Positions 1 to 50,393 of a stretch of 64,000 nucleotides of DNA are shown here, piece by piece. Where the stretch lies: NCBI GenBank assembly GCA_964017155.1, contig OZ024857.1, forward strand, positions 36,841,141 through 36,905,140, written 5' to 3'. Position numbers and translations under genes: made by a program. The notes under the pieces were generated by a model. The model was not told the origin of the DNA. It worked only from the letters and a program-made list of their open reading frames with translations, and did no database searches. Every line of letters starts with the position of its first letter. Position 1 is the first letter of the stretch. This DNA comes from Oasisia sp. SBJ-2009 (lineage: Eukaryota > Annelida > Polychaeta > Sabellida > Siboglinidae).

Positions 1-1360
1 TCTTATGTTGTCGTGCTCTTATCACATATTCTTGGTCTTTAAACTATCCACTTATGACATGTTTATTACATTTAATTGACAAGCACTTTACGTGCAATAA
101 AATAACGAGGACAGCCGGCCGTGATTCTTCTTTGATGTATATATGTGATTTTTAAAAAAGCAAAGACAAATATACAGACGTTTACAAAGTTATCAATAAA
201 TATGTACAAAGCAAAAGTGCTATATATGTATGCAAGATTCATAACCAACAACCACATATTAACTTGATTTCAACCTTATACAACACATATATTGTATCAT
301 GAAAACAATTAATTGATTACGTAACCTACCCTACATACTTGTTAAGTTTTATTAATGAATTTTGTTAAAGAATTTCATTTAGGTGATGTGCTTGATATTG
401 TTACAGTTATTTGATAAGGATGGCTTCTTGATACTGACTATTACTGACTTAGTGAGTCTCCTGACCCTATGTTGTTATTTCAATGTCATGTATTATGCCA
501 TTTATACAATCAATTCATATATAGTTTGTATTATTGTAGTAATTTTTTAACGGGTATATTGCATTATGTATTGGTCAAATAAAAACAAATTCCTCTTGAA
601 TTATATGTGAATATTTGGTACTGAAATGAAATGATACACTGTTGTTTTGTTAAATAAATGAAAAGCATTATTGAAAGTGGTCGTAAATAAGTGAGAGGTT
701 GGCTGTGACACAGCACAGGTGAGAGATGACATGTTGAGACCCCTGCAACATTTCTTCATGACCACTTAGTGAAGACAAGTGATACCGAAATGTATACACA
801 TGTAATGCATTTCCTTCATGATTACATTTGTGAAATTTAAACAAACACCCACAACCTCATGGAAGAAACAAAGGTGATGTTCTATAAAGCCGTTTGTACT
901 ATCACTCTACAGGAGCGAGGGGTGGATTACATATCGATGTCATCTGTGAAGATCATAAAGACATTCAACCAAAGTTGTCTCAGAAAGATTCTTTGTATCC
1001 TATGGAAAGATCGCCGCCCCAACGCCAGTGTATTCTTGGAGGCCAAAATAACTATAGTATTGATGCAATGATAATGCAGAACCAACTGAGCTTGGGACTG
1101 GCCTCTGTGTTAGAATGTTGCGTACCAACCGATGGGGACAGCGACTTTTCGATGACGTAGACTGGGAGATATAACGAGAAATAACTAGAATAACGGCTTA
1201 GAATGCCATTATTATATTACAAATGAAGAACAATACTGTACAAAGGTTGTCTTACAAATTATTAACTAATTAACTGAATTAATTAGCATGAATAAAATAA
1301 TAATGCAAATGTATTACTCCATTTAATGCATTTCAAAACTCTGCAAACAGTATTTTAACG
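1..1360. other. Gene-free stretch, outer part of left arm
   Basis: No recognisable gene or element. The only ORFs are short and show no coding character, although the ORF pair near 859-1160 is conserved in the right arm, as expected for a recent duplicate. Mirror position is about 49034-50393. Confidence 0.6.
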
Positions 1361-1367
1361 TTTATAT

Positions 1368-2281
1368 AAATAACAACGTTATGCCATTTTAAATTCAATT
1401 TTATTCAAATATTTATCAAAAAGAAAACGCACAAATGAGCTCATTGCTAGTTTTTCTTTAGGTCCTCCACACTCCGCAACGTCGTCGATAGAGCGTTGAC
1501 CTCTGCCGTCATAGCATTCCATCCCCTTTTCTGTCCGTATTCGACAAGGTTGATTTGAATCGGCCTTGTGACAGTTTAAAAACAATTTAAACCTTTAATG
1601 TTTTTTTTATTAAATCATGATTACAAATAATAAAGTATGCCGTGTTAGGGCCGTGGACATGCCCGCAATCGAAAGAAATCACCTCCGCGATTCTGGTGCC
1701 AATGCGAGGTTAGAAATTAACATTTTAAAAACTTAAAAAAAAAAACTTTAAATCATGATTACAAATAATAAAGTATGCCGTGTTAGGGCCGTGGACATGT
1801 CCACAGTCGAAATAAATCGCCTCCGCTGTTCTGGTGCCAATGCGAGGTAAGAAATGAACTTTTTAAAACCTTTAAAAAAATAATAAAACTTAAAATAATG
1901 ATTACAAATAATAAAGTATGCCGTGTTAGGGCCGTGAACATGTCCACAGTCGAAATAAATCGCCTCCGCTGTTCTGGTGCCAATGCGAGGTTAGAAATGA
2001 ACATTTTAAAAACGTTAAAAAAATTAATAAAACTTAAAATCATCATTACAGCTAATAAAGCATGCCGTGTTAGGCCCGCGGACATGTCCGCAATCGAAAG
2101 AAATGACCTCCGTGGTTATGGTGCCTAGGCGAGGTTAGAAATGAACATTTTAAAAACTTAAAAAAAATACAAAAACTTAAAATTATGATTACAAATAATA
2201 AAGCATGTGGTCTTAGGCCCGTGAACATGTCCGCAATCGAAAGAAATCGCCTCCGCGGTTCGCGTGCCTCTGGGAGGCGCC
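1368..2281. repeat. Repeat family R139: 240-bp head plus five 139-145 bp tandem units (left arm)
   Basis: A single-copy head (about 1368-1610) is followed by tandem units whose shared core GATTACAAATAATAAAGTATG begins near 1618, 1757, 1899, 2042 and 2187. The right-arm copy has one unit fewer, and a third, interrupted copy lies at 52430-53300. The last unit is cut by the T2 transposon. Confidence 0.85.
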
Positions 2282-2835
2282 TGTTACGGCCATTCTCGGA
2301 ATAATTGTCAATCTCGAGATTGGACGTCCGCCATCTTTGCCCGTTTCGGAATCTTTCGGAATTCCGAGATGGGTCAATCTCGGAATACTGCGTAGCATGG
2401 TAGCTTTCATATCATATGATTGGCCGTAACTGACCAGTTGCCATGGCCGGGACAGACGGACCAGTGCCTGGCATGTCGGCCGACCTGTCAACTCGGTCCT
2501 GTTCGAGACATACATCGGGCCCGATTTTTAGACAACTCGGTCCCTGTTTGGGGGCAGTCATTTCAAAATCGATAGTTTCTCGTTCCGAGTAATCTACATA
2601 CAGGTTTTATATATTTTGTAATTTTTACTTTATAAGTGGCATAATATGAATGTAATGTAAGTCGGTTTTCAAATGTCTTAATCCAAGGACCACACTAGAC
2701 ACAAGTATATGTGCATGTTCTTGCCTCATCCTTGTATGTATGTGCAAGATGACATGTATATTGAATAGTGAATAGCAACAATATCCTACATACATTAATT
2801 TATCACAAAAATGTGTGACTGTAAAGGGCAGCGTT

Positions 2836-4297: not shown

Positions 4298-4314
4298 TTA
4301 ATCTATGTAATTTA

Positions 4315-6611: not shown

Positions 6612-7010
6612 ATATTTATACTTACACGCTTAAAACTCCATTATCAGTTCGATTGTTTTTGCTCCTCGCGTTTCAGACTAATTTCACGAAAAAGCAAACC
6701 TACCAAGTATCCCTTGTGACATACTGGTTCGGTTTTCCACATGTTTTAATTCGTTTTTTGTTAAAACGTAAATATTATTTTAGAGGCGCCTCCTAATATA
6801 TAGTCTTTTTCATATTGAAGATTTCTACCGTACTGGTTTTATGTGGTAGACTATCTTCGCCTTATTCACGTGATAGCGCGTGATTACATGATGTCGCGAG
6901 ATCGGCCTTGACCCCCATCCAGGCAGTATAGCATCCCTCTATTTACGTTCGGTGTACACGCGTGTTTCGTATCCGACTTGCTTTTGCATTTTAACTCGTT
7001 TTTATATCAA

Positions 7011-7130
7011 ATGTCAATGCGTGGTCGCCCACGGAAATATGCCACCGACTCGGCAAAGAAAAGGGCACAAGCAGAACAGAAACGAAATCGTCCGCCCGCA
7101 AAAGTGTACATAGGCGAAGAGTTGGCCTAA
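7011..7130 (+). pseudogene. AT-hook N-terminal fragment (39 codons)
   Basis: An ATG-initiated frame of 39 codons ends at TAA. It begins with an AT-hook-like core (RGRPRKY), followed by a Lys/Arg/Gln-rich stretch and ends KVYIGEELA. This kind of basic head is common at the start of transposon-associated and uncharacterised DNA-binding proteins of animals; that family link is from memory and not proved here. A block at 13162-13211, on the other side of transposon T1, reads like a continuation (KTDAAFAKCLID). I infer one gene split by T1 and then decayed, probably the same locus as the exon blocks at 15140-17250. It could also be a chance short ORF. Confidence 0.4.
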
Positions 7131-7448
7131 GACCACATTTGCATTTTCCATAGGCGACCATTATAACGTTTCCTTCATTTCCTATTAATCTTGATCAGCT
7201 CTCTTATTTACAATTTCACAGCATGTTTACCCTCCACAGACAGAGGTTCAGTGGAAAATTCGTGAACTTTTAATACCTCGGGCTCCCACAAAGTTCATTC
7301 AAACCTTACACCCCTCCATTTCTGCTTGAGCCACCCTCGGATTGCCCCTGGTTACATCACCAAGTAAAATGACAAATGTATTAATACGCAGAAATGCACC
7401 GAATGACAGCTGTCGTAATTTGACAGCTCTGATGTCACGCTGCACAAA
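7131..7448. other. Gap between AT-hook fragment and T1
   Basis: No gene or repeat recognised. The final bases AACGT (7449-7453) are the left target duplication of T1. Confidence 0.5.
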
Positions 7449-7453
7449 AACGT

Positions 7454-8086
7454 TGTTACAACCGATAATGTAATAATCGCCCGTTAATGTAATAACTACC
7501 CGATAATGTAATAAAATCAACCGATAATGTAATAACCGCCCGTTAATGTAATAAAATCAACTGATAATGTAATAAACTTGCTACCCGATAATGTAATAAT
7601 TTTCGCCCGTTAATGTAATAAACTCCTCTTGCCTGATAATGTAATAACTTTCGCCCGTTAATGTAATAACGTACATATTTCACGTAGGACTTAGTCGTTT
7701 TCGTGGATTTCATGTTGATTTCTTGCACTTAGTCCATTTTTTTTGTCGCCTATTTCGCAATTTGTTTACTAACGGGTAGTAGTAATCTTTTTAGATTAAA
7801 TCCAATATGTTGATTCCAAACCTGAAGTTAGATTTGTCAGGTCAGGATTTTGAGTTATACATTTTCGCACCACGTTATACATTCTCGCACCATTTACGAA
7901 TGACGGTTTGCTGTAATGTTAGGGTATCTAATGCCGCAGGCTTGGTGTTCGCCGGTTCGATGCTAGTTTGAAAGCCAGGTTAAGAAATGGTTGATTAAAG
8001 AATGTTTTATTAAGGTTTTATTACGTAGTTTGTTGACACTTTCATGTCCACATATTCTCGTAAGATGTATTCTCGATCAATTTGGC
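7454..8086 (+). repeat. T1 left terminal inverted repeat
   Basis: Pairs with 12361-13021. The first about 220 bp hold ten sub-repeats in the order A B A A B A A B A B, where A is CCGATAATGTAATAA and B is CCCGTTAATGTAATAA. The same order is kept at the other end, as expected for arrayed transposase-binding sites. Confidence 0.88.
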
Positions 8087-8110
8087 CTATTTCGTCTATT
8101 TTTCATCTAT

Positions 8111-8640
<530 letters not shown>

Positions 8641-8933
8641 TTATGTCTTGGTATATGAAAAGAGAAACTAGCAGTGAGGAGAAGAATTCCCATTTTGCGA
8701 TGAGTAGCCTACTATGGCGTCCGAGTAATACCCTTGTACCCACAAGTTCGCGCTTTATGGTAGTCTACCCCAACGTCCGATCTATCTTAACAATGCCGAA
8801 TATGAGTAGTCTACAAAAAAGAGTGGACGTAGAGTACGCAGAAAAATGTGGGAACGCTTTCGGCACGTAGACGTGATAATGGAAAGACACCAAAAAAGAC
8901 CGCGGGAACGGGAACACGTGGTCGTGGTCTTGG

Positions 8934-8959
8934 GAGGCGGGAAAACATGAGTATATAAA
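8934..8959 (+). promoter_or_regulatory. Core promoter with E2F-like site and TATA box, inside T1
   Basis: GGCGGGAAAA (from about 8937), the reverse complement of the E2F consensus TTTTCCCGCC, is followed by GAGTATATAAAG near 8949. An ATG with a short open exon and a consensus donor follows 40 bp downstream. The spacing of TATA box, leader and ATG is that of a compact RNA polymerase II promoter. This is inferred from motifs only. Confidence 0.45.
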
Positions 8960-8997
8960 GATGTTGGCGGGCAATACCAGTGTTGGCGAGCTACTCC

Positions 8998-9084
8998 ATG
9001 CCTAAGGTATCTTCACGTCAGCGATGTAGGAAAGAGACCAAGTTACACGAAATAAACAAAGAGAAGAACAATTTCCATTCGAAG
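8998..9084 (+). CDS. Putative first coding exon of a T1-encoded gene
   Basis: ATG at 8998 opens 29 codons ending at a strong donor, AAG|gtgagt. The peptide starts MPKVSSRQRCRKETK and stays strongly basic, resembling a nuclear or DNA-binding N-terminus. A TATA box about 45 bp upstream supports this start. It lies wholly between the T1 inverted repeats, so it is probably transposon cargo, perhaps the start of its transposase. No domain is recognisable, and the downstream exons are uncertain because a decayed RT and microsatellites occupy the rest of the interior. It could be a captured host exon. Confidence 0.42.
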
Positions 9085-9657
9085 GTGAGTAAAATGGCGC
9101 AACGCGTCTTGCACATTTGTCGTTCATATTGAATGTTGATGTAAATCTTCTATGGAGTAGGCAGTTTCTATGTGATTGTCTATGTAGGACTTATCGCCTG
9201 TCTGTGAAAAGACCCGTGCTATCGGACAGAATCATTCCGGAGCTTCGCAAGGAAGAGTTATTTCTCTAATTTTGTTCTCGATTTATACGAACGAAATATC
9301 ACTTTCTTAGTATTGCTAGCAAACTGATTTCTAACTTGTCAGATAAGTCGGAATACTCGTTAGCTTCAAGTACCTGGATAAGTGAAACCGGGGTTGGTTA
9401 TCACACGGATTGGTTGTCATAAAGCAAGTAGTGCATCTCCTAGAAAGCGAGAACACTGCAATGATCGTTTAGTAAATATGAATCCCCATTTGTAATTTTT
9501 GTTTCCGCAACTGAATATTGAAGCGCTTGCGACATCTTTCGTTTTGTGTATGTAAAGTAAAGTATATATACGTTATTATGATTTTAGTTGTGCTTGACTA
9601 AATTGTAATATAGAATACTTACGTTATGATCAGTATTTTATAAACCGTTTTGGTTAG

Positions 9658-9748
9658 ATTCATACAATGGGTACCTATCCTATTCATGTCCAAATATGTC
9701 TTCCTGAAATGGTCTACGATTCCAACAAACATTTTATTGACGTAGCGT
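9658..9748 (+). CDS. Candidate second exon of the T1 gene
   Basis: The acceptor TTTTGGTTAG precedes an open 91-bp block that ends in a consensus donor (GCGT|gtgagt). It joins in phase to the exon ending at 9084 and reads through MGTYPIHVQICLPEMVYD without a stop. No family is recognised. Splice signals and phase are the only support. Confidence 0.28.
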
Positions 9749-9759
9749 GTGAGTAAAAT

Positions 9760-10950
9760 TGATTAATTACGCTTAACGTGACACTTTTTTATATAGCATT
9801 TAGCTACTTAATACAAATTTAGCTTAGCTTATAACATTTTGTGACAAACACACCCACATTGTGTGAGACAACCAAACAGGGTGTCGGGTAGACTCACAAA
9901 AGAGAACCTTTTTGAACAAACAAAAATACTATTTTTAATAAGGGTACATCGATATTAATATTCGTACATGAATTATAGATTGCAACTAATCTTAATAACA
10001 ATAATGCTCAAGGTAACATTTATTATAAAGAATAAAATAGGGAAAACTCGAAAAAGTATGACAACTATCCGCTGTCTGCCCTGCTTTATTAGATCAAAGC
10101 TTTGACATACGTCAGTCAGCAATTTCATTTATCTTATCTACTGAAATTTGATAGAAAACATTTCGATATTTAAATACTTATTTACATGGCACGGCAATAT
10201 GACCAATACAAATAAAGTTCGCACGCATTGTGAACATAGCAAGCAAATTGATTGGCCGTAGGACAGTTGTCTAATTTGAATAATATGACGCTAAAAGGAA
10301 ACCCTCTCAAATATTACGTGATGTATATCCCCTGAACGATGCAACATGAACTCAAAAATTATGTCTATCAAATCTTTCACCGTTCTATACTATCGCTTGC
10401 TTCGACACAAAAATATCAAACGAACTGATTCGGAAATAAACAACCAGGTTAAAGGCAATATGTTACTGAAACGCACACGTCCCGTTGGACACAACGAATA
10501 TATATATATATATATATTGGTGAATTTATAAATACCATATCAAAATATGTGTGCACAGTATCTAGATGCTGTGCATACACAAACTCTATATAATTAGTAA
10601 CACTATTTAGAGATGGGTTATTCCCAAATAAATTTATAATCTAAATATGATGCGGTACATAAACACAATATTGGCTAGAATTGCATATACGTTACTATGC
10701 ATTTTTGGATACATATTATACATCACTTAAAAAAGTGGTAACTAGACCATAATAAACGCTATTATGTCTACGTTTCCATGCGTCTAGGATATAAAATCTA
10801 GCATCCCAAATTGAACTGAATTCGCTGGCCTTCAATTCATTAATGTGATAGTAATAACACACGGATAGACATGGAATTCCCACAAATATTAGCTGGACTT
10901 TTCAAAAGCCTTTGCTACTTTGGGTTATAGGATATTACTAGACAACATAG
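9760..10950. other. T1 interior without recognisable gene
   Basis: AT-rich sequence with no convincing ORF. One short ORF (10346-10531) ends in a TA array and looks fortuitous. Confidence 0.5.
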
Positions 10951-10960
10951 TATGGCGTTA

Positions 10961-11330
10961 GTGGAGTAGTATTAAGTTTAATTAGAAATTATTTAACTAA
11001 CAAAAAGAGGTATGTTGAAGTAGAGAACGAAAAATCTGAAATACATGATAGTTCAATCGGCGTATCTCAAGGCTCGATGTTAGGCCCACTGTTATTTATT
11101 ATATACATTATTGACTTTGCCAAGGCCAGTGAACAAATTATTTTCTGTACGGTTAGGTACTCTTGATTCATTTGCAACGTAATGAACAATATCGAAACGT
11201 AGACGATGCGGTAAATACAGAACTAGGAATAGGTAATGAATGACTAAAACTTAACACTGTGTCTGATAACTTAGACAAAACTAAATACTTGGTTTCTAAA
11301 ACAGCCAGTAACATTTACTCCTCCAGTAAT
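10961..11330 (+). pseudogene. Decayed non-LTR reverse transcriptase fragment inside T1
   Basis: Broken frames still read LTNKKRYVEVENEKSEI, then GVSQGSMLGPLLFIIYI, then an LKLN...DKTKYLVS block. These match in order the fingers/palm region of non-LTR reverse transcriptases (GVPQGSxLGPLLFxIYIND; LKLNxxKTK). The catalytic Y-A-D-D region is lost and there are stops and frameshifts, so it is a fossil. Confidence 0.72.
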
Positions 11331-11435
11331 ATCGTAGGTAACGGTATTATTGATAGTGCCAATAATATATCAAATACATAGTACTTCATAATATAAAGAT
11401 TATGACATACTATATGTGTTATTTACATATATAAA

Positions 11436-11550
<115 letters not shown>

Positions 11551-12192
11551 CGTACAATAGCCGAATTACCCAGCCGTGTTTGGGGACAAAAAGCAGTCTT
11601 CCGCAATAACACCGTTTGAAAATTACAATCCCATTAATCTGTTCGGGATGGGTTCATTTATGCTATGCACAAAGTATCCTAGATAGATATCCCCTCATTC
11701 ACATAGCGCGAAACCTAATTTAACCAAACTGTGCCAAGAACAACTGTGACGAAATCAAAGTGAGTGATATGGCACAGGCAGACAGAATTACATTAAATAA
11801 CTCGGCAGTCCATCCACAATGCAAACAAGTATATTTTGCAATACTCGGTTACATTTTACATTTGTTTGCGCAATCCTTTGCCGACTAGTTCGGTATTCCG
11901 TGGTTTCGCCGGTTTACCTCTCAATTGTTCCTCAGGTTACTATTACTAATTGAGACTGACCAGAGGTGTGTTACCAATATGTTTCCTTTCTATCCCGGTA
12001 TGCTATGTTTGACATACTGCTTTCCATCGTTATTTGTGGGGCTGTTAGCTTGTTCATTGTAGTCTTATATAAAACGTATAACTCTACGAACCATCCACAT
12101 GGACCCTTTATATCACATGCACAATATCAGGCGATACATGCAAATTTAGTATAGATGTGGGTCCACAGGCAGAGAGGCGGTGTCTTTTGGTA

Positions 12193-12356
<164 letters not shown>

Positions 12357-12360
12357 TATA

Positions 12361-13021
12361 TAATTGGATCGAGACTACATCATACGAGAATTTACAGACA
12401 CGAAAGTGTCAACAAATTACATAATAAAACATTCTTTAATCAAACATTTCTTAATCTGGCTTTCAAAATAGCATTGAACAGGCAAACACCAAGCCTGCGG
12501 CATTAGATACCCTAACATTATAGCATGGAAAGGGAAATCGTCATTCGTAAATGTTGCGAGAATGTATAACGTGGTGCGAAAATGTATAATCCAACAATCT
12601 GACCTGCTGCGACGAATCTAATTTCAGGTTTGGAATCAACATATTGAATTTAATCTAAAAAAATTACTACTACTCATTAGTAAACATGACAGTATTGCGA
12701 AATATGCGACAGAAAAAAGGGCTACGTGCAAGAAATCAACATGAAAGTGCAATAAATCAACATGAAATCCACGAAAACGACTAAGTCCTACGTGAAATAT
12801 GTACGTTATTACATTAACGGGCGAAAGTTATTACATTATCAGGCAAGAGGAGTTTATTACATTAACGGGCGAAAATTATTACATTATCGGGTAGCAAGTT
12901 TATTACATTATCAGTTGATTTTATTACATTAACGGGCGGTTATTACATTATCGGTTGATTTTATTACGTTATCGGGTAGTTATTACATTAACGGGCGATT
13001 ATTACATTATCGGTTGTAACA
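12361..13021 (-). repeat. T1 right terminal inverted repeat
   Basis: Reverse complement of 7454-8086 with a few small indels, including a local duplication of a ...AAATCAACATGAAA... motif near 12733-12763. The same ten-unit sub-repeat array ends in TGTAACA at 13021. Confidence 0.88.
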
Positions 13022-13161
13022 AACGTCATTTATAATCACTCCACACTACATATGTGCTCACAGAAATCCAGACAACGTGCAAAATGCTGCTTTTATAAGG
13101 TACTCTGCGGACGTGCACATTTTGGTGGTCTTACGCCAGTTTATGGATTCAGACAAGAGTA

Positions 13162-13211
13162 ATGACCGCCATCAAAACTGATGCAGCGTTCGCCAAGTGT
13201 CTTATTGACAG
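13162..13211 (+). pseudogene. Block resembling continuation of the AT-hook gene
   Basis: The reading MTAIKTDAAFAKCLID ends at a donor-like AG|gttagt. I infer that it continues the fragment at 7011-7130, now 6 kb away because T1 lies between them. Weak evidence on its own. Confidence 0.3.
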
Positions 13212-13400
13212 GTTAGTACTCTGTTATTACTCGGCTTCAACCATTTTCACATTGTTTTAATACTGCGTGTGCCAGCTGACAAAATTGTTTTGCTATTAAA
13301 TTAGTCGACGGTATTAGGCCATTTAGGGTCATTCCGAGTGAACGCAAATAAAATTCCATAAATGTCAAAATGATAAATCATAATGGTTGCTGTCATCGAC

Positions 13401-13446
13401 GTCTAAGACTAAGTCTAAGTCTAAGACTTAGTCTTAGTCTTAGATT
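13401..13446. repeat. Palindromic CTAAGA/CTAAGT hexamer array
   Basis: CTAAG-based hexamers run about 24 bp and then switch to their reverse complement (CTTAG), making a near-perfect 46-bp hairpin. Confidence 0.85.
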
Positions 13447-13769
13447 ATTTTTGAATGGTTCAGAAAATAAATTAATACAGTACGATGAAAGCTTTGCCGC
13501 TTTGCATTTGGTAAGATTAGCAAGAATTAAAAATTTGAACGTTCTAGCTTAAATATGTTTCAAATTATGGCACTTTGACATTTGACAGCTTGTTAAAAAT
13601 AAATTTTTTTATTCACATTTCACTAGTCAATATATTCTGCAATCTTGAGCCTGTGTCAGTGAAATTGTGTTGAGATGATCTATATAATATAGAGATTACA
13701 TAAATACAATTGGAATATAAATACAGTGTACGGTTAATGTACAGCAAGTTGATACAAATCATGATTTAT

Positions 13770-14730
13770 TCAAAATATCACTCACGATAGGGTTTTCAGA
13801 CCCTGATTGTGAGCAGAATAGACGAATACGTTAGACATAAATTGTACATATTTGGTATATAAATGTGCAAATCGGAGGAATATGGCAGATCTGGTTACCT
13901 TAATTATGAATCTATAGATATGGAAAAATGGTATGTTATTATATTTGTTAAAATATGACCAACTTCCAACCCAAACATTTCAATGAGGCATAGCTTGTAT
14001 TGTCACAAAGCCTTTTCTAGGTGTAAGCTCATTCCTATAGCTCAAATAACTAGTAAGTCTCAATATCCTTCCGAGTTCCTTCACAACAAAAATGGCATAC
14101 GTCTGGGTGCCCCAATTTTTAAAATAAATTGCTCATGATATACGAGATGGTTTTCAGACATTGATTGTAAGCTAAATATGGATGGTTCAATGAACTGTTG
14201 TGTCAGTTTGATATATATGCATAACATTGTGAATTATCAGAGCAACATGACATGCCTGACTGTCTTAATTAGGAATGTACACATACCCAACGTGCTATAT
14301 TTTATATTTCTTAAAAAATTTGCAAATTAACTTCCGACCGGTCAGTGTGGATTAGAAGATATTGTTATGAAACGTTTACCGGGCATAAACCAAACCAAAC
14401 CAAACACATAAAAAACAAGTAACTCTCAATATGCTTCCAAAATTGCTTCCGTCTCTTGAAAGAAGAATGAGGACCCATTGGTACCCAAAACTTATCAATA
14501 TATCACTTACGAGCGTGTTTTCAAGCACTGATTTTCATTTAAACATACATGTTGTTAGTAATGTTTATAAATATTAGATATCTATGCATATCGGTATACA
14601 TTTTTAGGGAGTTTTGCATGTCTGTTTGTCGCATTTATGAATCTGTACATATTAAAACTGGTATAGATCTGTTTACGAGGCATAAAGCAAACATAACACA
14701 AATATCAAGTAAATTTAAAAAAAATTCTCA
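13770..14730. repeat. Diverged tandem repeat, about 360-bp unit, nearly three copies
   Basis: A GGTTTTCAGACxxTGATTGT motif recurs at about 13791, 14150 and 14517 (spacing 359 and 367). Other shared blocks, such as AGTCTCAATATCCTTCC versus ACTCTCAATATGCTTCC, recur at the same phase. Copies are roughly 65-75% alike by eye. Confidence 0.65.
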
Positions 14731-15139
14731 TACAAATATAAGTTGTATCAATTGTAATTTAGTGACAGTTCTACCATGGGTAGATTTTTTCAATTTATGT
14801 CACAGTACTTACGTGTACATGTATACTGCTTTTATCCAGTGATGGGTCCGCAGCCCAGTACTTTTTTTCAAGAATTTGCTAATATTCGTCACTACAGTGA
14901 TGACTTTGGACTGGATTGCGAATGGAATTTCTTCGTGACCAGCTATGATGATAAAAACATGTTTGATTGATTTTTAACCATTCTGGCCATTCTTATTTGT
15001 GTACACTTAACACAGCTTTTGTCAAGCTTTCAATTTTATTTTGTATTTCATTTGCAGTTCACTTTTCCAGCTGATTTTCCAAACATGTATTCTTCAATAC
15101 TTTTGCATAATATAAATTATAAAATTTATATTGTTGCAG

Positions 15140-17250
15140 AATCCCCTATGATGACGACCCAATGTGATTAGAAGCAGTTGATCCAGCTGATAAAACCTAT
15201 CAATTTGGAGATGATACACTAGAAGAGATTCGCCAGTAAATATTATGATGTATGTATGTGTTACATTAAGTAATTTTTTTAATGCAAAACTATGACACAA
15301 ACTTGTAAGTTTTGTCATGGTTTAAAGTTCTTATATAGCGCAGTATCCAATCTTTAGGATTGCTCAAAGTGCTTTTTACACTTTACTCCCTGGCAGACCT
15401 GTTCAATCGAAGACCATTTCGGCTTCTCTGGGAAGCATTCAGCCACGTGGCAATTTCGCGAAGACTGCTTGTACACAAATATTCATCACTGTTTATAGCC
15501 AGGTACTCATTCATACAGCTGAGTTAACTGGAGCAATGTAGTGTGAAAAAACTTGCCCAAGGTTTCACATGGCAGCACAGGATTTGAACCTGGGTCCTCT
15601 TATTTGACAGTCCGATACTCTACCCCTGAACCACTGCGCTAATACTAGCAACCTTTGTTTATGACCAATATTAAAGAAAAACTGTTAGTCTCACAGACTG
15701 TTACATTTCATCATGATGAAATTTCGGTAGTATGCCTACAGTGCAGTTGTGAGGAACACTAAATAGGTTTTCAGCTCACTTAGTCTTCATGGCATTAAAA
15801 TTAACTGATTTTATTCTAATATTATTTTACTTAAAACCACTAATGACCTGTTATGGTGCTGTGCAATTTAGCAAACACAATTTGCTGTGTTTTGTGGTGA
15901 AAAACTCAGATTAACAAAAATTAATTTCATTCAATATTACAAATTCACTATTCAGGGCTGTATAGTCCAAAGGACCTGAGGACCTCTTGGGCCAGTGTTG
16001 ATGATTAAAGTCCATTTTGAGGTGTTTACAGTAATGCTCACTGGTTTGGCTGTTTTATTTCAGATGCCGCAAAGACGTTGCCACTCTGCAGCCTGTTACT
16101 ACATGTGAACTTGTGCATGACATTGAAGAAATTGTGACTGATGAATACAGACGATGAAGACATGACACTGATATGACAAGAGCGGAAGACGGCACTACCA
16201 GAATGGAGGTAATCATTGGTATTTGATATTCATAAAATCTCATCATGACACAAGTAACTGCATTTTAAAGATGTTTCTTATAAACTATTCATTTTGTATA
16301 ATGGCAAGAAAGATGTTATGTTTGTTTTGATTAATTAAGTTTATAATGATGTAGGTGTGGTGTATGTTGGTTAATTATATGTTGCCATATTTTTGTTACA
16401 AACATGGAAATTAATATTACGGAAATTATACATTGAAATACCCATTACATCATATACTATAATTGGTATCAACTACATTCTGATTGGGTAGGCTGAGTAA
16501 AGTGGAATACATAACTCTATCTTTACAGAAAGCACTAATTAATGCCCACCTATGTCACTGCATTCATACAATGTTGCTGTGTTTGTGGTCATTTCATGAA
16601 TAACCAGAGAAAAATATGCCAACTATGTGATTATGGTGAAGAAACATTTAATTCATAATTACAAACTTACAACATATTCAAAATTATTCATCACTAGCCT
16701 ATGCAAAGTCAAAGGGTGTAGGCTTCCCTATGACCTGAAAATAAAACGAGTTTCAAGTGTGCGGTACTTCTGTCATTGAGTAACACAAATTCTTTATACT
16801 AATAAGTTCTGCTAGTAAAACAATTATTACAATTGTTGTCACACACACACAGCTATGCACGGTTGTAAGGTTTAACAAATTAAACCGCTTGACCAGTAAA
16901 TCATTATATATGTTAATATGCATCTAAATTGTTAGCTTAGGTATATAACAGGTCTTAGTAAGGTGTAACATATCTGGCATGTAGAGTTTACGATATGAAT
17001 ACCAAATACCAAACAATTGTATAATTGACTTTTGCTAAATGTATCATCACATAAGATATCATAAATGTCAGAGCCATGTTAATTGTCACGTTGTTTCTTG
17101 TACAGGTAGATGTGGATGCACAGAAAATGTCAGGTACCTGGCATGCAGTACCATTAAAGAGAGTGAACTCGCACAGTAATGCCATCGATATCCAAGCCGA
17201 TGAAGTTCACCAAAGAATGCCAAACCTATCTTATAGTGTTGAGAGAGGTT
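15140..17250 (+). pseudogene. Decayed multi-exon gene, three in-phase exon blocks
   Basis: Block 1 (15140-15236) follows ATTGTTGCAG and ends at a gtaaat donor. Block 2 (16064-16208) follows TTTTATTTCAG and ends at gtaatc. Block 3 starts at 17106 after TTGTACAG. Splice phases agree across all three: codons read ...DKTYQFGDDTLEEIRQ, CRKDVATLQPVTTCELVHD and VDVDAQKMSGTWHAV. Each block contains one in-frame TGA (near 15164, 16155 and 17248), which CGA-to-TGA change would produce. I do not recognise the family. It may be the 3' part of the AT-hook gene at 7011/13162, on the same strand. Confidence 0.5.
15327..15640 (-). repeat. tRNA-derived SINE, copy 1
   Basis: On the minus strand it starts AGCGCAGTGGTTCAGGGGTA (box A-like head), then a box B-like GGTTCAAATCC, a body with CCTGGCTATAAACAGTG, and a tail ending CGCTATATAAGAAC. 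Related copies lie at 22516-22823, 40621-40928 and 54747-55107. Confidence 0.82.
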
Positions 17251-17349
17251 GACCGAAGGCTCATGCCATATTTGCCAGACCATGGCACCCCCTGTTCTAC
17301 CACAAACTGCAAAGCTAGTCAGATATCACCATATTCGCATGTCAAGCAA

Positions 17350-19600: not shown

Positions 19601-19736
19601 AACCTTTAATAACGTTTAATTCTTTTAGTCATTCTGTCCTCATTATTGACATAATAGTGTGGAAATGGTTGTCTGTGGAGGAACGATTAAAGAGATCGTT
19701 GCATTCATATAGCCATGCAGCTGCGCTAAATCTCTC

Positions 19737-29280: not shown

Positions 29281-29289
29281 ACCCAGTAA

Positions 29290-29735: not shown

Positions 29736-30054
29736 AACCATACATGTATTTGTGCTCACTAATTATAAATTTCATTACTTCACATTTTTCAGATCACTTC
29801 ACATATTATCTCTCAGGCTACTGAAACTGCAATCATCACACAAGAAGCTGATCAACTATCAATACAGTTCAATCTGCAATGCTTACCATTTCTTCGTATG
29901 CCACAAATCACATAACAGTACAGACAAAATTGACATGTGCATAATTTCAAATGGTCGCGTATACTTATTTTATTTCAGGCACGCTTCAAAACCAACCAAT
30001 TCGAATTACACCGCCTTGCCCTTGATGGGAAACATAAAACATTAAAACCGAATA

Positions 30055-30160
30055 CAGTCCCAAACGACCGGGACAGACCGAGACTACACCGGGGAGAACC
30101 GTGACCACACCGGGGAGCACCGTGGCCCCACCGGGGAGCACCGTGATAAACCGGCACCAA
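30055..30160. repeat. GC-rich minisatellite at inner end of left arm
   Basis: About 20-21 bp units of the type CCGGGGAGCACCGTGNCC. The arm homology stops at 30160, inside this array. Confidence 0.88.
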
Positions 30161-32467: not shown

Positions 32468-32502
<35 letters not shown>

Positions 32503-32503
32503 T

Positions 32504-32541
<38 letters not shown>

Positions 32542-33129
32542 GTATTGCTTTAGGATAATACAATTTCATGATTTCTGAGTTGTTCTTTTGTTGAATGGAC
32601 ATAGCAGACGTCATGTTACTATTCAAATGGAAACACATAGGCTATCTAGTAACCGTAATAAGCTTTATAAGACTGAGTACAAAGTAACAGTACTTAATTA
32701 TTTGTTAACATTGCAATAACTGTTCACAAGTACGAAGAAAGAAACAACTTGCGTGAGTCTTTTCTTAAATTGTTGTAAATTAAGTATTTGTGTTATTTCA
32801 TTATGTTATGTCTAACATAATGATTTTTATTAATTTGCTAAACACACTACCTAAATTAACGAATGACAGTGGTTCTTGGAGGAAGTGTTTACGGTTTAGT
32901 TCTTCGTAACTGGAGCAAGTACCATTTATAGCATATCCATATCTTGCCAAACAAACTACGAACAACTGAAATCTACAGCGAGTAATAAAAGTCAAATGCA
33001 ATGGGATATGAGGTGAGCCTAAAACCTAAGTCCCACTGCCCCGGTTCTGGCCACGGTGTACCTCGGCAAAAATTCCAGGTGCTCCGGAGTGATCCGTGAA
33101 GATTGGGCTCATTTGTATAATTATTTCAG

Positions 33130-33173
<44 letters not shown>

Positions 33174-33302
33174 TGGTATTGCCGGTGTCGCCATGGTGTC
33201 GCCAGGTTTTGAACCCCGGATCATCCCGATGTAGCCATGGTGTCACACGGTATCACCCCGGACTCCCGGAGTGTCAAGGATATGTCAGGGTGTCGCCCCG
33301 GT
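30161..33302. other. Palindrome spacer (loop), 3,142 bp
   Basis: Single-copy sequence between the arms. It holds a TATA/CCAAT motif pair (30563-30602), AT-rich DNA, (TA)n arrays at about 32469-32541 and 33135-33172, and the outer half of the minisatellite (33172-33302). No coding exon was recognised. Confidence 0.8.
30563..30602 (+). promoter_or_regulatory. CCAAT plus TATA motif pair in the spacer
   Basis: AGCCAATAG is followed about 30 bp later by TATATATAAATAG. The first downstream ATG (30669) has only three codons. It may be the promoter of a non-coding transcript or 5' exon; motif evidence only. Confidence 0.3.
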
Positions 33303-33415
33303 TTGGTGCCGGTTTATCACGGTGCTCCCCGGTGGGGCCACGGTGCTCCCCGGTGTGGTCACGGTTCTCCCCGGTTTAGTCTCGGTCTGTCCCGGTCGTT
33401 TGGGACTGTATTCGG
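33172..33415. repeat. GC-rich minisatellite spanning the spacer/right-arm junction
   Basis: Units such as CGGTGCTCCCCGGTGNGGCCA and CCGGTGTCGCCATGGTGTCG. 33303-33415 pairs with the left arm; 33172-33302 continues the array on this side only. Confidence 0.88.
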
Positions 33416-33727
33416 TTTTAATGTTTTATGTTTCCCATCAAGGGCAAGGCGGTGTAATTCGAATTGGTTGGTTTCGAAGCGTGCCTGAAATAAAATAAGT
33501 ATACGCGACCATTTGAAATTATGCACATGTCAATTTTGTCTGTACTGTTATGTGATTTGTGGCATACGAAGAAATGGTAAGCATTGCAGATTGAACTGTA
33601 TTGATAGTTGATCAGCTTCTTGTGTGATGATTGCAGTTTCAGTAGCCTGAGAGATAATATGTGAAGTGATCTGAAAAGTGTGAAGTAATGAAATTTACAA
33701 TTAGTGAGCACAAATACATGTATGGTT

Positions 33728-34173
33728 TACACATCAGACACTGCTGTATGTTCGTACTGGGTTATATAGTGCTATCCTGGTGCAGTTTTTCATCCACGGC
33801 TGTGCTTAATTTAATGTATCTCTGAACATTATTATTTGCTCACTCCAATATTTTCAGGGACCTTTCTGCAATAGTATAGGATGTTCTATACAAACTATTA
33901 GCAAAATCAGAGATTGTGCCGAATGTTTGTATTGGGCTATACAATGCTATCCTGGTGCAATTTTACATCCACGGGTGTACTTAATTTGATGTATCTCTGA
34001 AACTTATTATTTGCCCACTCTAATATTTTCAGGGACTCTTCTGCAATAATATTTGATCCTGTGTACACAATATTAACAAAATCATAGATTGTGCTATGTT
34101 TGTAATGGGTTAAATAATTCTGCAATAGTATAGGATACTGTCTACAAAATATTTGCAAAATCAGAGGATAGAT
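33728..34173. repeat. 182-bp tandem repeat (right arm)
   Basis: Mirror of 29290-29735, with the same unit number. Confidence 0.8.
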
Positions 34174-34179
34174 TTACTG

Positions 34180-35600
34180 GGTACTTGAGGTTAAAGGTCA
34201 CATTTTGAAAATTACAACATTCTTATTTACACTATTGTTTTAATTTTATTACAGTTATATGCACATGTTTATTGGCTTTCCAATGATATGTTGTTTGTTT
34301 CTCTAGCTTTATTAATAGCAGTTCAGTGACCTATATCTTCCATGATACTTGACCTAGATTTTTTTGTATTTTATTTTTTATTTTGATATTCTCGCATGAG
34401 CCAACAACTGTACTAAATGTCATCAAAATTGGAGACGGGTGATGTTTTGAGTGATTGATTTGACATGGAATAACCCTTACATTTAGTAGACGCTTGAATA
34501 ACTGCTGAATATATAAAAGGAACTGTTGATTTAGTATAGACATGTAGTTAAATTAGCCAGTTCTCCTTTAACAGACTGTATGATAAAACTTTAATAACAC
34601 TCGCAACATAGCATTATACATACATTCCTGTATCTCCTCTATGCCTTTGCCACATATTCAAAACCAAAGTCAAAGAACGAAGTAGAAAAATAAGATTGTT
34701 CTACCAACCCCATTCATAATCACGACGCCTAGGCCCTAGCCCTAGAGGCTAGACCTAGTAATTCATAGTCAACCAACAAATAAATCAACCAATATGTCTA
34801 TTTTACAGTCACAGCGAGCAAATAAATGAACGTCTATAAACATGTAACAAAGTTAAAAACGAGACAAACCGGTTTTTGAGAAGTATAAATTCTTCACTGC
34901 GACATAATCCGTGATAGTGATATACACAACCTTGTCCTTGACGGGGCTAGTGTCTTTTCTTGATAATACAATTTTGGGTATTTGGTCTTGTTAGTGTTGT
35001 AAAATTATAAGTACTTCACTCTAAGTCTGACCAGTTTCAAAGTATAACTTGTTTATATCATTACATGAACAACAGGCATTTAGCCATCGTATGGAAACAT
35101 ATGCCTTGTTTGTTTACACGAGAAATTTCGAATGACAGTCAGTGTAGTAGATCATACGGCTACGGCTACGACGTAAAATTATGTCGACACCTACCTCGCA
35201 CAATTTCGATATTCCTAGTTTCGCATTCCACCCTTCACGATTCACATTACTTTCCCATGTTGCCAATCTTTTCTTATTAAAAGGGAATCCATATAACTTA
35301 AATTTGTTGCTGATATTGGAGCATCCCCAAGCAGAACTGCTACACTGGTCACTGCTTGAAAACGCGCCAAATGAGACCGATAATGGCGTCCACACATCCA
35401 TCGACCAATCAAAAATTGGTACGTCATTGGCCAAACTCTATGTATCCAAGGCTCTGGTCGAACGTGGCTGGTTTCGCCATCTTGTGGACAGAAGATGGCG
35501 TCGGAAGAGAAATAATATCCGCTAGAGGGCAGCATAACAAATACATTACGGCAAATAGCCTCATGCAGGTTATGAGCCATTAATGTAATATAAACATTAG
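34180..35600. other. 5' flank of right PLPP copy
   Basis: Mirror of 27840-29280. GACCAATC (about 35402) and TACGTCATTGGCC lie within 200 bp of the start codon and are candidate promoter elements. A short stretch just upstream (GAAATAATATCCGCTAGAG) is shared with the paralog at 58639-58660, so the promoter-proximal region was duplicated along with the gene. Confidence 0.4.
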
Positions 35601-35606: not shown

Positions 35607-35670
35607 ATGGATTCTAAACTTGTTCCTGGAATCCTGCGTATCCTGTACGGCATCTTGATGTTTGTAATAG
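35607..35670 (+). CDS. Phospholipid phosphatase exon 1, right copy
   Basis: ATG at 35607 (context ACAATGG) opens MDSKLVPGILRILYGILMFV. The exon ends one base into a codon at GTGAGAATG, in phase with exon 2 at 41278. The hydrophobic segment is the expected first transmembrane helix of PLPP. Total coding length through 54679 is 259 codons, against about 280-310 for the family, so a short C-terminal tail exon is still missing. Confidence 0.9.
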
Positions 35671-38934: not shown

Positions 38935-40345
38935 AATAATAATAATAATTAGTTAACTTCTATTGCGCCTATATCCTTAGAAACCAAGGTCAGAGGCGCA
39001 TCAAAACAAAAAGGATTAATCGATCTCATAGTCGGTAAACAAATCAAGTTGTCATCAGATTGATTGATGCGCCAGGGAGCTATGGTGGATAGGCCAGATT
39101 GTACAGATATGTTTTTAAATGACGACGGAATTTAGCAATATTTTCAACTGATTTCACGCTAGAAGGAAGCATATTCCATAGAGTAGGCGCACCCACAGCA
39201 AAAGCCCTGGTCCCCATATTAGTATTGACCTTTGGTACAAAGAGTAAATCAGAAGTAGATGACCGAAGTTGAATAGGTTTTCTTATAGGAGTAAGCAAAG
39301 TATGTAAATACGATGGCTGCTTAGAAGAAAGTGCCTGGTAAGTAATGGTACACATCTTAAACATTATACGATATTGGACAGGCAGCCAATGCAGAGACTT
39401 TAAAAGCGGCTTAGAAGGAGTAAAGCGTGGAGACCTAGTCACCACCCTTGCTAAGCAATTTTGAACACGTTGTAGTTTTGTGATATCCTTAATAGCAATA
39501 TTATGAAAAAGTGAATTACAATAGTCTAATCTACTAGTAACTAATGCAGTTGCAATAGTCTTTGCAACATAAACAGGCAAATATCGACGAATACGCCGCA
39601 AATCACGAATGTGGTAAAAACATGTTCGACAAATTTGAGAAATGTGTTCTCTAAAATTTAATTTATGATCAAAAATTACTCCCAAATTCCTAGTCGAAAC
39701 TGCAGGCATAACATGCTGATTAAGTAAGGGTATAGGAAAAAGAGTCTTAATTTTGTCACGCTGCCGGTGTGTACCAATAATAAGAAACTCAGTTTTATCA
39801 GCATTCAGCTTCAATCTACTCTCAGTCATCCAGCAAAAAATGTCATCAATACAAGTTCTAAGCTGCTGTAAAGAACTACTTGCATCTGAAGTGGATAATG
39901 ATATATAAATTTGAGTATCATCTGCATAAAGATGATGGCTCAAATGATGCCTATTAATCACTAGACTCAATGGAGTAGTATACAGTGTAAAAAGTAATGG
40001 TCCCAAAACTGACCCCTGAGGAACACCACACGAAATATTAAGTGGTGACGAAAAACAATCCCCAATCTTAACTCTCTGGTGTCTACCACTCAGATATGAT
40101 CTAAACCAGCTTAACGCTATACCAGACACACCATACCACACAGACAAACGATCCATTAGAATAGAATGATTAATCGTATCAAAAGCAGCTGACAAATCAA
40201 GTAAGGTGAGTGCAGTAACTCTACCATTGTCCATATTTAGAGTGATGTCGTTATGCACTTTTAAGAGAGCAGTCTCTGTAGAATGAAGTTTCTTATATGC
40301 AGATTGGAATACATTGACCAATTACTGCCCCAATTGAGAATAGGT
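38935..40345 (-). mobile_element. 5'-truncated CR1/L2-like retrotransposon (right arm)
   Basis: Mirror of 23100-24515, with a stop-free 413-codon ORF (39080-40321, minus strand). The YADD catalytic motif is intact. One substitution relative to the left copy is in the palm-proximal segment (ICRM versus FCWM). Confidence 0.88.
39080..40321 (-). CDS. Reverse transcriptase C-terminal portion, 413 codons (right)
   Basis: Same domain order as the left-arm ORF: RT motif AFDTINHS, CGVPQGSVLGPLL, YADD, LKLNADK, then a CR1/L2-type C-terminus ending FRRHLKTYLYNLAY. Five residues differ between the two copies. It lacks the endonuclease and cannot be autonomous. Confidence 0.93.
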   Translation of the reverse strand: MVNVFQSAYKKLHSTETALLKVHNDITLNMDNGRVTALTLLDLSAAFDTINHSILMDRLSVWYGVSGIALSWFRSYLSGRHQRVKIGDCFSSPLNISCGVPQGSVLGPLLFTLYTTPLSLVINRHHLSHHLYADDTQIYISLSTSDASSSLQQLRTCIDDIFCWMTESRLKLNADKTEFLIIGTHRQRDKIKTLFPIPLLNQHVMPAVSTRNLGVIFDHKLNFREHISQICRTCFYHIRDLRRIRRYLPVYVAKTIATALVTSRLDYCNSLFHNIAIKDITKLQRVQNCLARVVTRSPRFTPSKPLLKSLHWLPVQYRIMFKMCTITYQALSSKQPSYLHTLLTPIRKPIQLRSSTSDLLFVPKVNTNMGTRAFAVGAPTLWNMLPSSVKSVENIAKFRRHLKTYLYNLAYPP

Positions 40346-41277: not shown

Positions 41278-41432
41278 TGCTTCTGCCAGCCTTCGTCATT
41301 CTGGCTGGTAACATTAAACCATTCCACCGCGGATTCTACTGTGATGATGAGACCTTGAGTAAGCCACACGCAGAGTCGACAGTGTCTTTTCTATGGCTCG
41401 CGCTTTGGGGTCTTTTGTCAAACATGTTCGCG
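41278..41432 (+). CDS. Phospholipid phosphatase exon 2, right copy
   Basis: 155 bp between GTGATTGCAG and GTATGTTTC. It encodes the end of membrane helix 2, then IKPFHRGFYCDDETLSKP and ESTVS. The family consensus here is ESTVP; the serine replaces a conserved proline just before helix 3. The left copy and the paralog both keep proline, so the change is specific to this copy. Confidence 0.93.
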
Positions 41433-41834: not shown

Positions 41835-42157
41835 ATTGGCATACTTGAGCCTATTACCGTCCGCAAAACATACCCCAACACTGGCGGAGCAAGAGGCTAT
41901 CAGCTTTGCCGCCTGCTTGTCACTCCATCAAGAGCACAATTCTTTGAAGTCTTTTTGATCTTCCTGTTTGGTGCTGCCATTGAGCTGAGTCTAACTGTGA
42001 CCACAAAAACCATGGTCGGAAGACTGCGGCCACATTTCTTGGCTGTGTGTCGGCCAAACTACACGACATTTAGTTGCACAGATGAGTACGGGCGGCCACG
42101 TTTTGTGACAGAGGATGTCTGTACAGGGACAGATGACATCAAGAACCGTCAAATGAG
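41835..42157 (+). CDS. Phospholipid phosphatase exon 3, right copy (motif C1)
   Basis: PLPPs are integral membrane enzymes that remove phosphate from lysophosphatidate, phosphatidate, sphingosine-1-phosphate and related lipids, with the active site facing outside the cell or the lumen. This 323-bp exon spans residues 74-181. It has a hydrophobic helix (FFEVFLIFLFGAAIEL), motif C1 as K131-x6-R138-P139, and an N-glycosylation sequon N148-Y-T in the C1-C2 loop, as in vertebrate LPPs. Flanks are TTATTCCAG and GTGAGA. The paralog's exon 3 has exactly the same length, which supports the boundaries. Confidence 0.95.
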
Positions 42158-42846: not shown

Positions 42847-42904
42847 GTTGTCGTTCCCGTCAGGCCATGCTTCATTTGCGGCATACACCATGACGTTTCT
42901 TGTG
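42847..42904 (+). CDS. Phospholipid phosphatase exon 4, right copy (motif C2)
   Basis: 58 bp between CGTTTGCAG and GTAAGA. Joined to exon 3 it gives RLSFPSGHASFAAYTMTFLV. PSGH (residues 185-188) is motif C2, whose histidine is the nucleophile of the family. Joined to the block at 54503 it reads on as FYLQARM, the expected family sequence, so the 11.6 kb intron 4 is well supported. Confidence 0.94.
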
Positions 42905-43987: not shown

Positions 43988-44943
43988 TAATCTTATACTT
44001 AACTGGCCTAAATTATTACGGCCTTTTAAAACCGTTTTTTCATCTTATATCCATGTGTATGTATTCTCAATGTGATTCTGCATCACTTCCGGTACAAAGA
44101 AGTCAGATTAAAAAAAAATTGTGTGTTAGAGCAAATTAAAGACGTAAATATCGCTAACTTTCTGCGGCAAATATGGCGCGAACTGTAGGCGCTGTTACGT
44201 CCAGTCTCGGGATAAAGTCAATCTCGAGATTGGACGTCCGCCATCTTTGCCCGTTTCGGAATTCCGAGATAGGACGGTCAATCTCGGAATATGCAATTAG
44301 ATACTTATCACGTGATCAAGAAAGTGTAAATACTACTGTATATCGAAAACTTCTTACATATAAATAATGCGTTTTGCTATATGTAGGATGTAACAAAGAT
44401 CCCGTTCGTTGGCGCCACTTTATTCGAAAGAAATGTAAATCTGGGGTAATACCACATTTGATAAAGCAATTGAATTACGACATAAAAATATTCACTATAT
44501 TTAGCACGGCATACGGTAGATGGCCTTACATATGTATGTTAGCTCCTAAATAATATCTTCCTAATTATAATATACCGCAGCCCAAACAATGAGTGTATGT
44601 ATGTGTAAGTATCTGTAATTTCTCGAAAACACGATGCCAGTTTATTAGAATGGCATGTAGATTTGTGGTAAGACCATAAATTATTATATACCCATGAATG
44701 TACGAGTTCGAATAGAACTTATAATTTTAGCCTCGTTAAATTAGCCTAGCAATATGCATAAACAGGGGCCGAACGTAAAATCTGTATCCACTGGCAATCT
44801 TGAAATGTTAGTCATCCCCTGAAAAATTACTAGTCCCCATTTTTGTTGGACAAATTTAATAAAAGTCAAATGGGTGTTGTATATATCCCCGTATTATATT
44901 ACAATAACGTAGTATTGTTTGTGTATATATATGTGTGTATATA

Positions 44944-46202: not shown

Positions 46203-46219
46203 TAAATTACATAGATTAA

Positions 46220-47332: not shown

Positions 47333-47682
47333 CAGGGTTGGAAAAAAATCTAGATTATTTCGAATAAATCGGATTTTTTTCGATTAAATCGGATTGTTTC
47401 GTTTAATTCGATTTATTCGATTTTTTTCAACAGTCTCACAATCATACGAAATAATTTGTAATTCGGAAAATAAATAAAAGTATGGCATATCATAATAATA
47501 TACCTAATAGACTGAACATTTCATTCTTAGCATTTCTAAAGAATACAGTTAAATCAACACGCAACATAAGCATAAATGTTTGATAATCTGAAAAAAAATC
47601 AATTTCTTGATTTTTTCATGTTGATTAAATCAATGATTTCATCGATGATTTAATCAATTTAATTAAATCAACGCCAATCCTG
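47333..47682. mobile_element. hAT-type MITE (right arm)
   Basis: 350 bp, CAGGGTTGG...CCAATCCTG, flanked by AACGCTGC on both sides (47325-47332, 47683-47690). Confidence 0.88.
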
Positions 47683-48255
47683 AACGCTGCCCTTTACAGT
47701 CACACATTTTTGTGATAAATTAATGTATGTAGGATATTGTTGCTATTCACTATTCAATATACATGTCATCTTGCACATACATACAAGGATGAGGCAAGAA
47801 CATGCACATATACTTGTGTCTAGTGTGGTCCTTGGATTAAGACATTTGAAAACCGACTTACATTACATTCATATTATGCCACTTATAAAGTAAAAATTAC
47901 AAAATATATAAAACCTGTATGTAGATTACTCGGAACGAGAAACTATCGATTTTGAAATGAAAACATCCCAAACAGGGACCGAGTTGTCTAAAAATCGGGC
48001 CCGATGTATGTCTCGAACAGGACCGAGTTGACAGGTCGGCCGACATGCCAGGCACTGGTCCGTCTGTCCCGGCCATGGCAACTGGTCAGTTACGGCCAAT
48101 CATATGAGACTAATCATATGAAAGCTACCATGCTACGCAGTATTCCGAGATTGACCGTCCCATCTCGGAATTCCGAAAGATTCCGAAACGGGCAAAGATG
48201 GCGGACGTCCAATCTCGAGATTGACAATTATTCCGAGACTGGACGTAACAGGCGC

Positions 48256-49030
48256 CTCCCAGAGGCACGCGAACCGCGGAGGCGATTTTTTTCGATTGCG
48301 GACATGTTCACGGGCCTAAGACCGCATGCTTTATTATTTGTAATAATAATTTTAAGTTTTTGTATTTTTTTTTAGTTTTTAAAATGTTCATTTCTAACCT
48401 CGCATAGGCACCATAACCACGGAGGTCATTTCTTTCGATTGCGGACATGTCCGCGGGCCTAACACGGCATGCTTTATTAGCTGTAATGATGATTTTATGT
48501 TTTATTAATTTTTTTAACGTTTTTAAAATGTTCATTTCTAACCTCGCATTGGCACCAAAACAGCGGAGGCGATTTATTTCGACTGTGGACATGTTCACGG
48601 CCCTAACACGGCATACTTTATTATTTGTAATCATTATTTTAAGTTTTATTATTTTTTTAAAGGTTTTAAAAAGTTCATTTCTAACCTCGCATTGGCACCA
48701 GAATCAAGGAGGTGATTTCTTTCGATTGCGGGCATGTCCACGGCCCTAACACGGCATACTTTATTATTTGTAATCATGATTTAATAAAAAAACATTAAAG
48801 GTTTAAATTGTTTTTAAACTGTCACAAAGCCGATTCAAATCAACCTTGTCGAACAGGGACAGAAAAGGGGATGGAATGCTATGACGGCAGAGGTCAACGC
48901 TCTATCGACGACGTTGCGGAGTGTGGAGGACCTAAAGAAAAACTAGCAATGAGCTCATTTGTGCGTTTTCTTTTTGATAAATATTTGAATAAAATTGAAT
49001 TTAAAATGGCATAACGTTGTTATTTATATA
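48256..49030. repeat. R139 repeat, head plus four tandem units (right arm)
   Basis: Mirror of 1368-2281 with one fewer 139-bp unit. Confidence 0.85.
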
Positions 49031-50393
49031 AACGTTAAAATACTGTTTGCAGAGTTTTGAAATGCATTAAATGGAGTAATACATTTGCATTATTATTTTA
49101 TTCATGCTAATTAATTCAGTTAATTAGTTAATCATTTGTAAGACAAGCTTTGTACAGTATTGTTCTTCATTTGTAATATAATAATGGCATTCTAAGCCTT
49201 TATTCTAGTTATTTCTCGGTATATCTCCCAGTCTACGTCATCGAAAAGTCGCTGTCCCCATCGGTTGGTACGCAACATTCTAACACAGAGGCCAGTCCCA
49301 AGCTCAGTTGGTTCTGCATTATCATTGCATCAATACTATAGTTATTTTGGCCTCCAAGAATACACTGGCGTTGGGGCGGCGATCTTCCCATAGGATACAA
49401 AGAATCTTTCTGAGACAACTTTGGTTGAATGTCTTTATGATCTTCACAGATGACATCGATATGTAATCCACCCCTCGCTCCTGTAGAGTGATAGTACAAA
49501 CGGCTTTATAGAACATCACCTTTGTTTCTTCCATGAGGTTGTGGGTGTTTGTTTAAATTTCACAAATGTAATCATGAAGGAAATGCATTACATGTGTATA
49601 CATTTCGGTATCACTTGTCTTCACTAAGTGGTCATGAAGAAATGTTGCAGGGGTCTCAACATGTCATCTCTCACCTGTGCTGTGTTACAGCCAACCTCTC
49701 ACTTATTTACGACCACTTTCAATAATGCTTTTCATTTACTTAACAAAACAACAGTGTATCATTTCATTTCAGTACCAAATATTCACATATAATTCAAGAG
49801 AAATTTGTTTTTATTTGACCAATACATAATGCAATATACCCGTTAAAAAAATTACTACAATAATACAAACTATATATGAATTGATTGTATAAATGGCATA
49901 ATATATGACATTGAAATAACAACATAGGGTCAGGAGACTCACTAAGTCAGTAATAGTCAATATCAAGAAGCCATCCTTATCAAATAACTGTAACAATATC
50001 AAGCACATCACCTAAATGAAATTCTTTAACAAAATTCATTAATAAAACTTAACAAGTATATAGGGTAGGTTACATAATCAATTAATTGTTTTCATGATAC
50101 AATATATGTGTTGTATAAGGTTGAAATCAAGTTAATATGTGGTTGTTGGTTATGAATCTTGCATACATATATAGCACTTTTGCTTTGTACATATTTATTG
50201 ATAACTTTGTAAACGTCTGTATATTTGTCTTTGCTTTTTAAAATATCACATATATACATCAAAGAAGAATCACGGCCGGCTGTCCTCGTTATTTTATTGC
50301 ACGTAAAGTGCTTGTCAATTAAATGTAATAAACATGTCATAAGTGGATAGTTTAAAGACCAAGAATATGTGATAAGAGCACGACAACACAAGA

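Follow-up and report, generated by a model that had tools for sequence, protein, structure and literature searches.

Does the long inverted repeat in this stretch of the Oasisia sp. SBJ-2009 genome, which carries a phospholipid phosphatase (PLPP) gene in each arm, record a genuine duplication, or was it created when two haplotypes were joined in opposite orientations during assembly? We analyzed the 64,000-nucleotide window (i.e., the whole stretch, 36841141-36905140 of the contig), with a further 100 kb of the same contig fetched on each side, and we searched the 764-Mb assembly of 33 contigs. All coordinates are positions in the window, 1 being its first letter, with negative values and values above 64000 falling in the flanks of the same contig.

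Extent and gene content of the arms

Self-BLAST of the window readily delineates the inverted repeat. In the inner pairing, 33303-43534 matches 30160-19905 in inverted orientation over 10,257 columns at 99.25% identity. In the outer pairing, 44262-48784 matches 6281-1748 at 97.2%, and the outermost pairing within the window matches 48255-50393 to 2134-1 at 96.2%. Kilobase-long matches at such identity are far beyond chance expectation. When the flanks are included, the pairing continues as 48255-65456 with 2134 to -15101 and is followed by pieces that reach 66685 and -19966, these outermost pieces including left-only stretches of ~2.4 kb and ~1.3 kb. The left arm (minus strand) occupies 1-30160 of the window and the right arm (plus strand) 33303-64000, both continuing into the flanks as just described, and the loop between them (30161-33302, plus strand) is 3,142 bp long. 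The original prediction of arms of at least 17 kb around a 3.1-kb loop is thus borne out, with an unchanged loop and with arms that are larger (33303-66685 and 30160 to -19966). Its outer ends have the right coordinates but correspond to the left arm meeting the window edge rather than to the ends of the arms. The whole structure spans ~87 kb, with arms of ~33-50 kb, and is a palindrome on a single contig, its long, highly similar inverted arms being separated by a short spacer, with no N bases within or between the arms.

Each arm contains the six exons of a PLPP gene, gene A, together with the first exons of a second gene, gene B. The exon borders of gene A are our own reading of the sequence, made without transcripts. 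Right-arm gene A (plus strand; 35607-35670, 41278-41432, 41835-42157, 42847-42904, 54503-54679, and 56767-57054) yields a 354-aa model with a PAP2 domain (PF01569, E 1e-25). In the left-arm model (minus strand; 27775-27838, 22012-22166, 21287-21609, and 20535-20592, with exons 5 and 6 at -4274 to -4098 and -6650 to -6362), the last exon is one base longer, which causes a frameshift, and the protein ends at 292 aa, past the phosphatase domain. Exons 1-4, which had been predicted in both arms, are indeed present, but the full count is six, exons 5 and 6 lying outside the range considered earlier. The active site of PAP2 proteins is formed by three motifs, KxxxxxxRP, PSGH, and SRxxxxxH. All three are found in gene A, in exons 3, 4, and 5, which identifies it as a PLPP gene. 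The best of 1056 protein matches is from Lamellibrachia satsuma, with 50% identity over 98%. The phosphatase domain is retained in both A copies, which are divergently oriented. Up to codon 285 the copies differ at six codons, with four amino acid changes and two silent ones (counted by eye), which is too few to speak on selection.

Genes A and B are members of a local PLPP cluster. Of 48 candidates scored in the genome, 11 are PAP2 matches, and nine of these lie on this contig, spread over no more than 191 kb, with two belonging to a single gene. Eight of these nine are on the minus strand, the only one on the plus strand being right-arm gene A. In an exon-3 tree of the cluster, in which rows are 37% filled, the left and right copies join each other, and the neighboring gene g155 groups with a protein of the tubeworm Lamellibrachia at 99/97. 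The 5' part of gene B in the right arm (plus strand) comprises a candidate exon 1 at 58722, an open frame with exon 3 at 63474-63836, and exon 4 at ~64821. Exon 5 of gene B was detected on the left alone, outside the arm at -25404, and is followed by further exons on the same strand.

One difference between the arms is a 13-kb stretch present only on the left (~6621-19609), in intron 4 of gene A. Its borders share 3 bp (TTA). Since they have no terminal inverted repeat, a single transposon insertion is disfavored, and we prefer to read the difference as what may be a deletion in the right arm. The 13-kb left-arm indel noted originally may therefore not be an insertion on the left. Within the stretch lies an element (7453-13022) with inverted ends of ~650 bp (7453-8082 and 12362-13022), 86.8% identical and made of TTATTACATTATCGG-like repeats.

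Several other sequences are mirrored between the arms. A 143-bp tandem repeat at 1612-2268 has its counterpart at 48277-48782, with ~4.6 copies on the left vs. ~3.5 on the right. An IS1595-type transposase frame (DDE_Tnp_IS1595, E 2.6e-18) occurs at 51667-52236 (plus strand) and, mirrored, at about -1844 to -1230. An open reverse-transcriptase frame of 413 aa lies at 23125-24363 (plus strand) and, mirrored, at 39083-40321 (minus strand), the left-arm copy matching RVT_1 with an E value of 1.8e-23. Rfam gave no matches within the window.

The junction at the center

The loop is not unique sequence. Among the 40 places scored out of 1,779 candidates in the genome, 16 others match it at 91-97% identity over 3,140 or more of its 3,142 bases. 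The loop and the adjoining right arm form one copy of this dispersed repeat (30157-35015, plus strand), which passes through 33302/33303 unbroken. All three repeat copies that we fetched likewise run across this boundary into right-arm sequence, and the unbroken sequence at the junction site was read directly in two other copies. The 3' end of the repeat is uncertain, one copy matching the window to 35152 and again to 35456. At its 5' end, the copy in the loop lacks the first ~416 bp, all three fetched copies starting upstream of 30157. This missing part was not found within 100 kb, where only a 156-base match at 75% was seen, nor was a displaced 5' part found at the outer end of either arm. 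Comparison with the repeat copies also delimits the mirrored part of the repeat in the left arm (28436-30160, minus strand).

The inversion junction thus falls inside the dispersed repeat, at 30157-30160, where the four bases CCAA are common to the left-arm end and the repeat. Such a microhomology is a feature of fold-back or template-switch junctions, even if 4 bp alone could be due to chance. A 23-base pattern spanning the junction has a single occurrence genome-wide. Two transposon-based explanations were rejected. The loop is not a transposon that entered an already complete palindrome, because the repeat passes 33302/33303 in 3/3 fetched copies, and a foldback-type transposon is not the cause, the repeat being devoid of inverted ends and the arms reaching far beyond it.

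Divergence between the arms and their outer ends

After masking, in which columns near gaps, simple repeats, and the stretch 44124-44270 were dropped, the arms differ at 241/29,787 sites. Divergence is 0.49% in the inner block (50/10170) and 0.97% in the outer block (191/19617). Without masking, the counts are 54/10403 and 297/21159, and a microsatellite border misaligned near 44.1-44.3 kb inflates the second of these. These values correct the identity of about 98-99% originally estimated by eye, the raw figures being 99.25% in the inner pairing and 97.2% and 96.2% in the outer ones. Fold-back chimeras, in which a single molecule is copied back on itself during sequencing or amplification, also have short-microhomology centers like the one described above. 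Nevertheless, we regard such an artifact as close to negligible here, since the arms differ at these 241 masked sites and by the 13-kb indel, and each carries changes of its own. Indeed, when the 12 sites at which the arms differ within the dispersed repeat were compared with the outgroup copies, five changes were assigned to the left arm and five to the right, leaving two unassigned. Within this repeat, the arms are 0.7% apart vs. 1.1-2.2% from the three other copies. This agrees with the very recent duplication that had been proposed, the same repeat copy being present in both arms.

The same proposal had left room for ongoing gene conversion, of which we found a weak sign only. The inner block is half as diverged as the outer one (Fisher P = 5.9e-6), and divergence is uneven along the outer block (P = 0.009). 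However, it is not uneven along the inner block (P = 0.16), and the best change-point (42417, reached in 0/300 permutations) does not coincide with the 13-kb difference but lies 1.3 kb away. The step, as read from these counts, might hint at conversion near the loop, but regional rate differences would also explain it. Moreover, since the shared repeat copy is only 1.1-2.2% from other copies, the arm pair is young in any case. That the likeness of the arms is due to gene conversion between them is accordingly, in our view, highly doubtful. We also think it improbable that the locus is an annelid gene palindrome whose PLPP copies are homogenized by conversion near the loop, limited by the 13-kb heterology, and whose loop flips via recombination between the arms.

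A more serious alternative is that two haplotypes of one locus were joined in opposite orientation via the dispersed repeat. Heterozygosity could give a divergence of 0.5-1%, which is the range seen here, so that the arm divergence could equally be heterozygosity and counts against the duplication reading. The assembly contains two 100% matches to gene A exon 3 and no more, and the private changes are evenly divided between the arms (5/5), both of which fit a mis-join. In addition, scaffolding errors are described as a source of artificial palindromes (PMC7953838).

The outer ends argue the other way. A mis-join predicts mirrored flanks, and no mirrored run exists between the outer flanks, where minus-strand matches other than the arm ends are only 71-285 bp long at 74-86%. 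Homology of the right arm stops exactly where a 175-bp long terminal repeat (LTR) starts (66686), the partner LTR ending at 71921, and a mis-join would need a second break at this point. In the 71922-73500 segment that follows, the first 15 matches listed against the left flank consist of simple repeat only. Exon 5 of right-arm gene B was not found past the LTR element, although a run of 2,500 N (73501-76000), the sole N run within 100 kb, could hide gene B exons. Both ends of this run fall on multiples of 500 counted from the start of the window, and it may be either a withheld stretch or a scaffold gap. With flanks that are not mirrored, a right-arm gene B that stops at the LTR, arms without N, and a center made of an N-free microhomology junction, the haplotype mis-join raised in the original prediction is disfavored, and we consider it rather unlikely.

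The LTR element itself is informative. In the left arm the LTR site is unoccupied, and the bases flanking the element in the right arm differ (GTGAC vs. CGTGC). The two LTRs differ at 7/175 sites, whereas the arms are 0.8% apart (P about 0.0006), and the pair is therefore too diverged for a single insertion after the duplication. Taken at the level of sequence, these features suggest that the right arm lost its outer end when two LTR elements recombined.

Proposed origin and polarity of the duplication

The reading that we favor, and hold to be quite probable, is that of a real, young inverted segmental duplication within the PLPP cluster, which arose by fold-back or template switching and was later trimmed by LTR recombination. 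DNA synthesis through the dispersed repeat would have folded back or switched template at the 4-bp microhomology, and the stretch that holds genes A and B would have been copied in reverse, leaving the 3.1-kb asymmetric loop. Alternatively, a perfect palindrome might have formed first and lost its center later by deletion at a microhomology. In either case, the right arm could then have lost its outer end, and with it the last gene B exons, when an LTR element there recombined with another copy.

The left arm is probably the original and the right arm the added copy, since all remaining PAP2 genes in the cluster have minus-strand orientation. The contiguity of the loop with the right arm would point the opposite way. 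Because of it, an original left arm requires either a later flip of the loop by recombination between the arms or a deletion of the center. If the left arm did come first, the lost outer end of the right arm would have held the missing 416 bp.

Similar structures are known. In palindrome P8 of the human Y chromosome (VCY), two arms of 38.0 and 37.4 kb, each carrying a single gene copy, flank a 3.4-kb spacer (PMC6790999), dimensions to which the ~33-50-kb arms and 3.1-kb loop described here are close. For P8, which belongs to a sex chromosome, gene conversion is documented as the process that maintains the likeness of the arms (PMC6790999), whereas at the present locus conversion is at most hinted at. 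Inverted copy-number variants are attributed to ODIRA or other template switching, and in yeast secondary microhomology junctions raise spacers to 1.1-34.9 kb (PMC10766186). The locus resembles these variants in its inverted copies, microhomology junction, and kilobase spacer, and it is on the yeast junctions described there that a later deletion of the center is modeled (PMC10766186). ODIRA, in contrast, starts from an inverted triplication (PMC10766186), and here only two arm copies are seen. An ODIRA product was rejected because the third copy is missing, 54000-56000 (99-100%) and exon 3 (100%) being found in two places only. Among invertebrates, the palindromes reported in Folsomia candida and Adineta vaga also consist of inverted duplicated genes on one scaffold. 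They were detected as synteny blocks of several genes, and the Dscam2 palindrome of Folsomia has a synonymous rate of 0.2 (PMC5490193, PMC7953838). In contrast to what is described for these, the copies here are almost the same in sequence, and the junction can be placed at single-base resolution.

A literature search covering titles and abstract openings found no description of this locus or of a PLPP palindrome. The locus looks like one more instance of an already described type of DNA duplication, real rather than an assembly error. If it is real, the junction, the probable LTR trimming, and the neighboring cluster can all be read, which makes the order of palindrome making and erosion testable in a natural animal genome, and a lipid-phosphatase cluster is seen gaining an inverted copy. 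Direct duplications are also found in the right flank, outside the window. Three tandem copies of a ~2.65-kb unit, ~99% identical and with long simple repeats, occupy 92060-100272 inside the PLPP cluster, and at ~107535-109015 one PLPP gene has a tandem duplication of its fifth exon (~700 bp, 97.6%).
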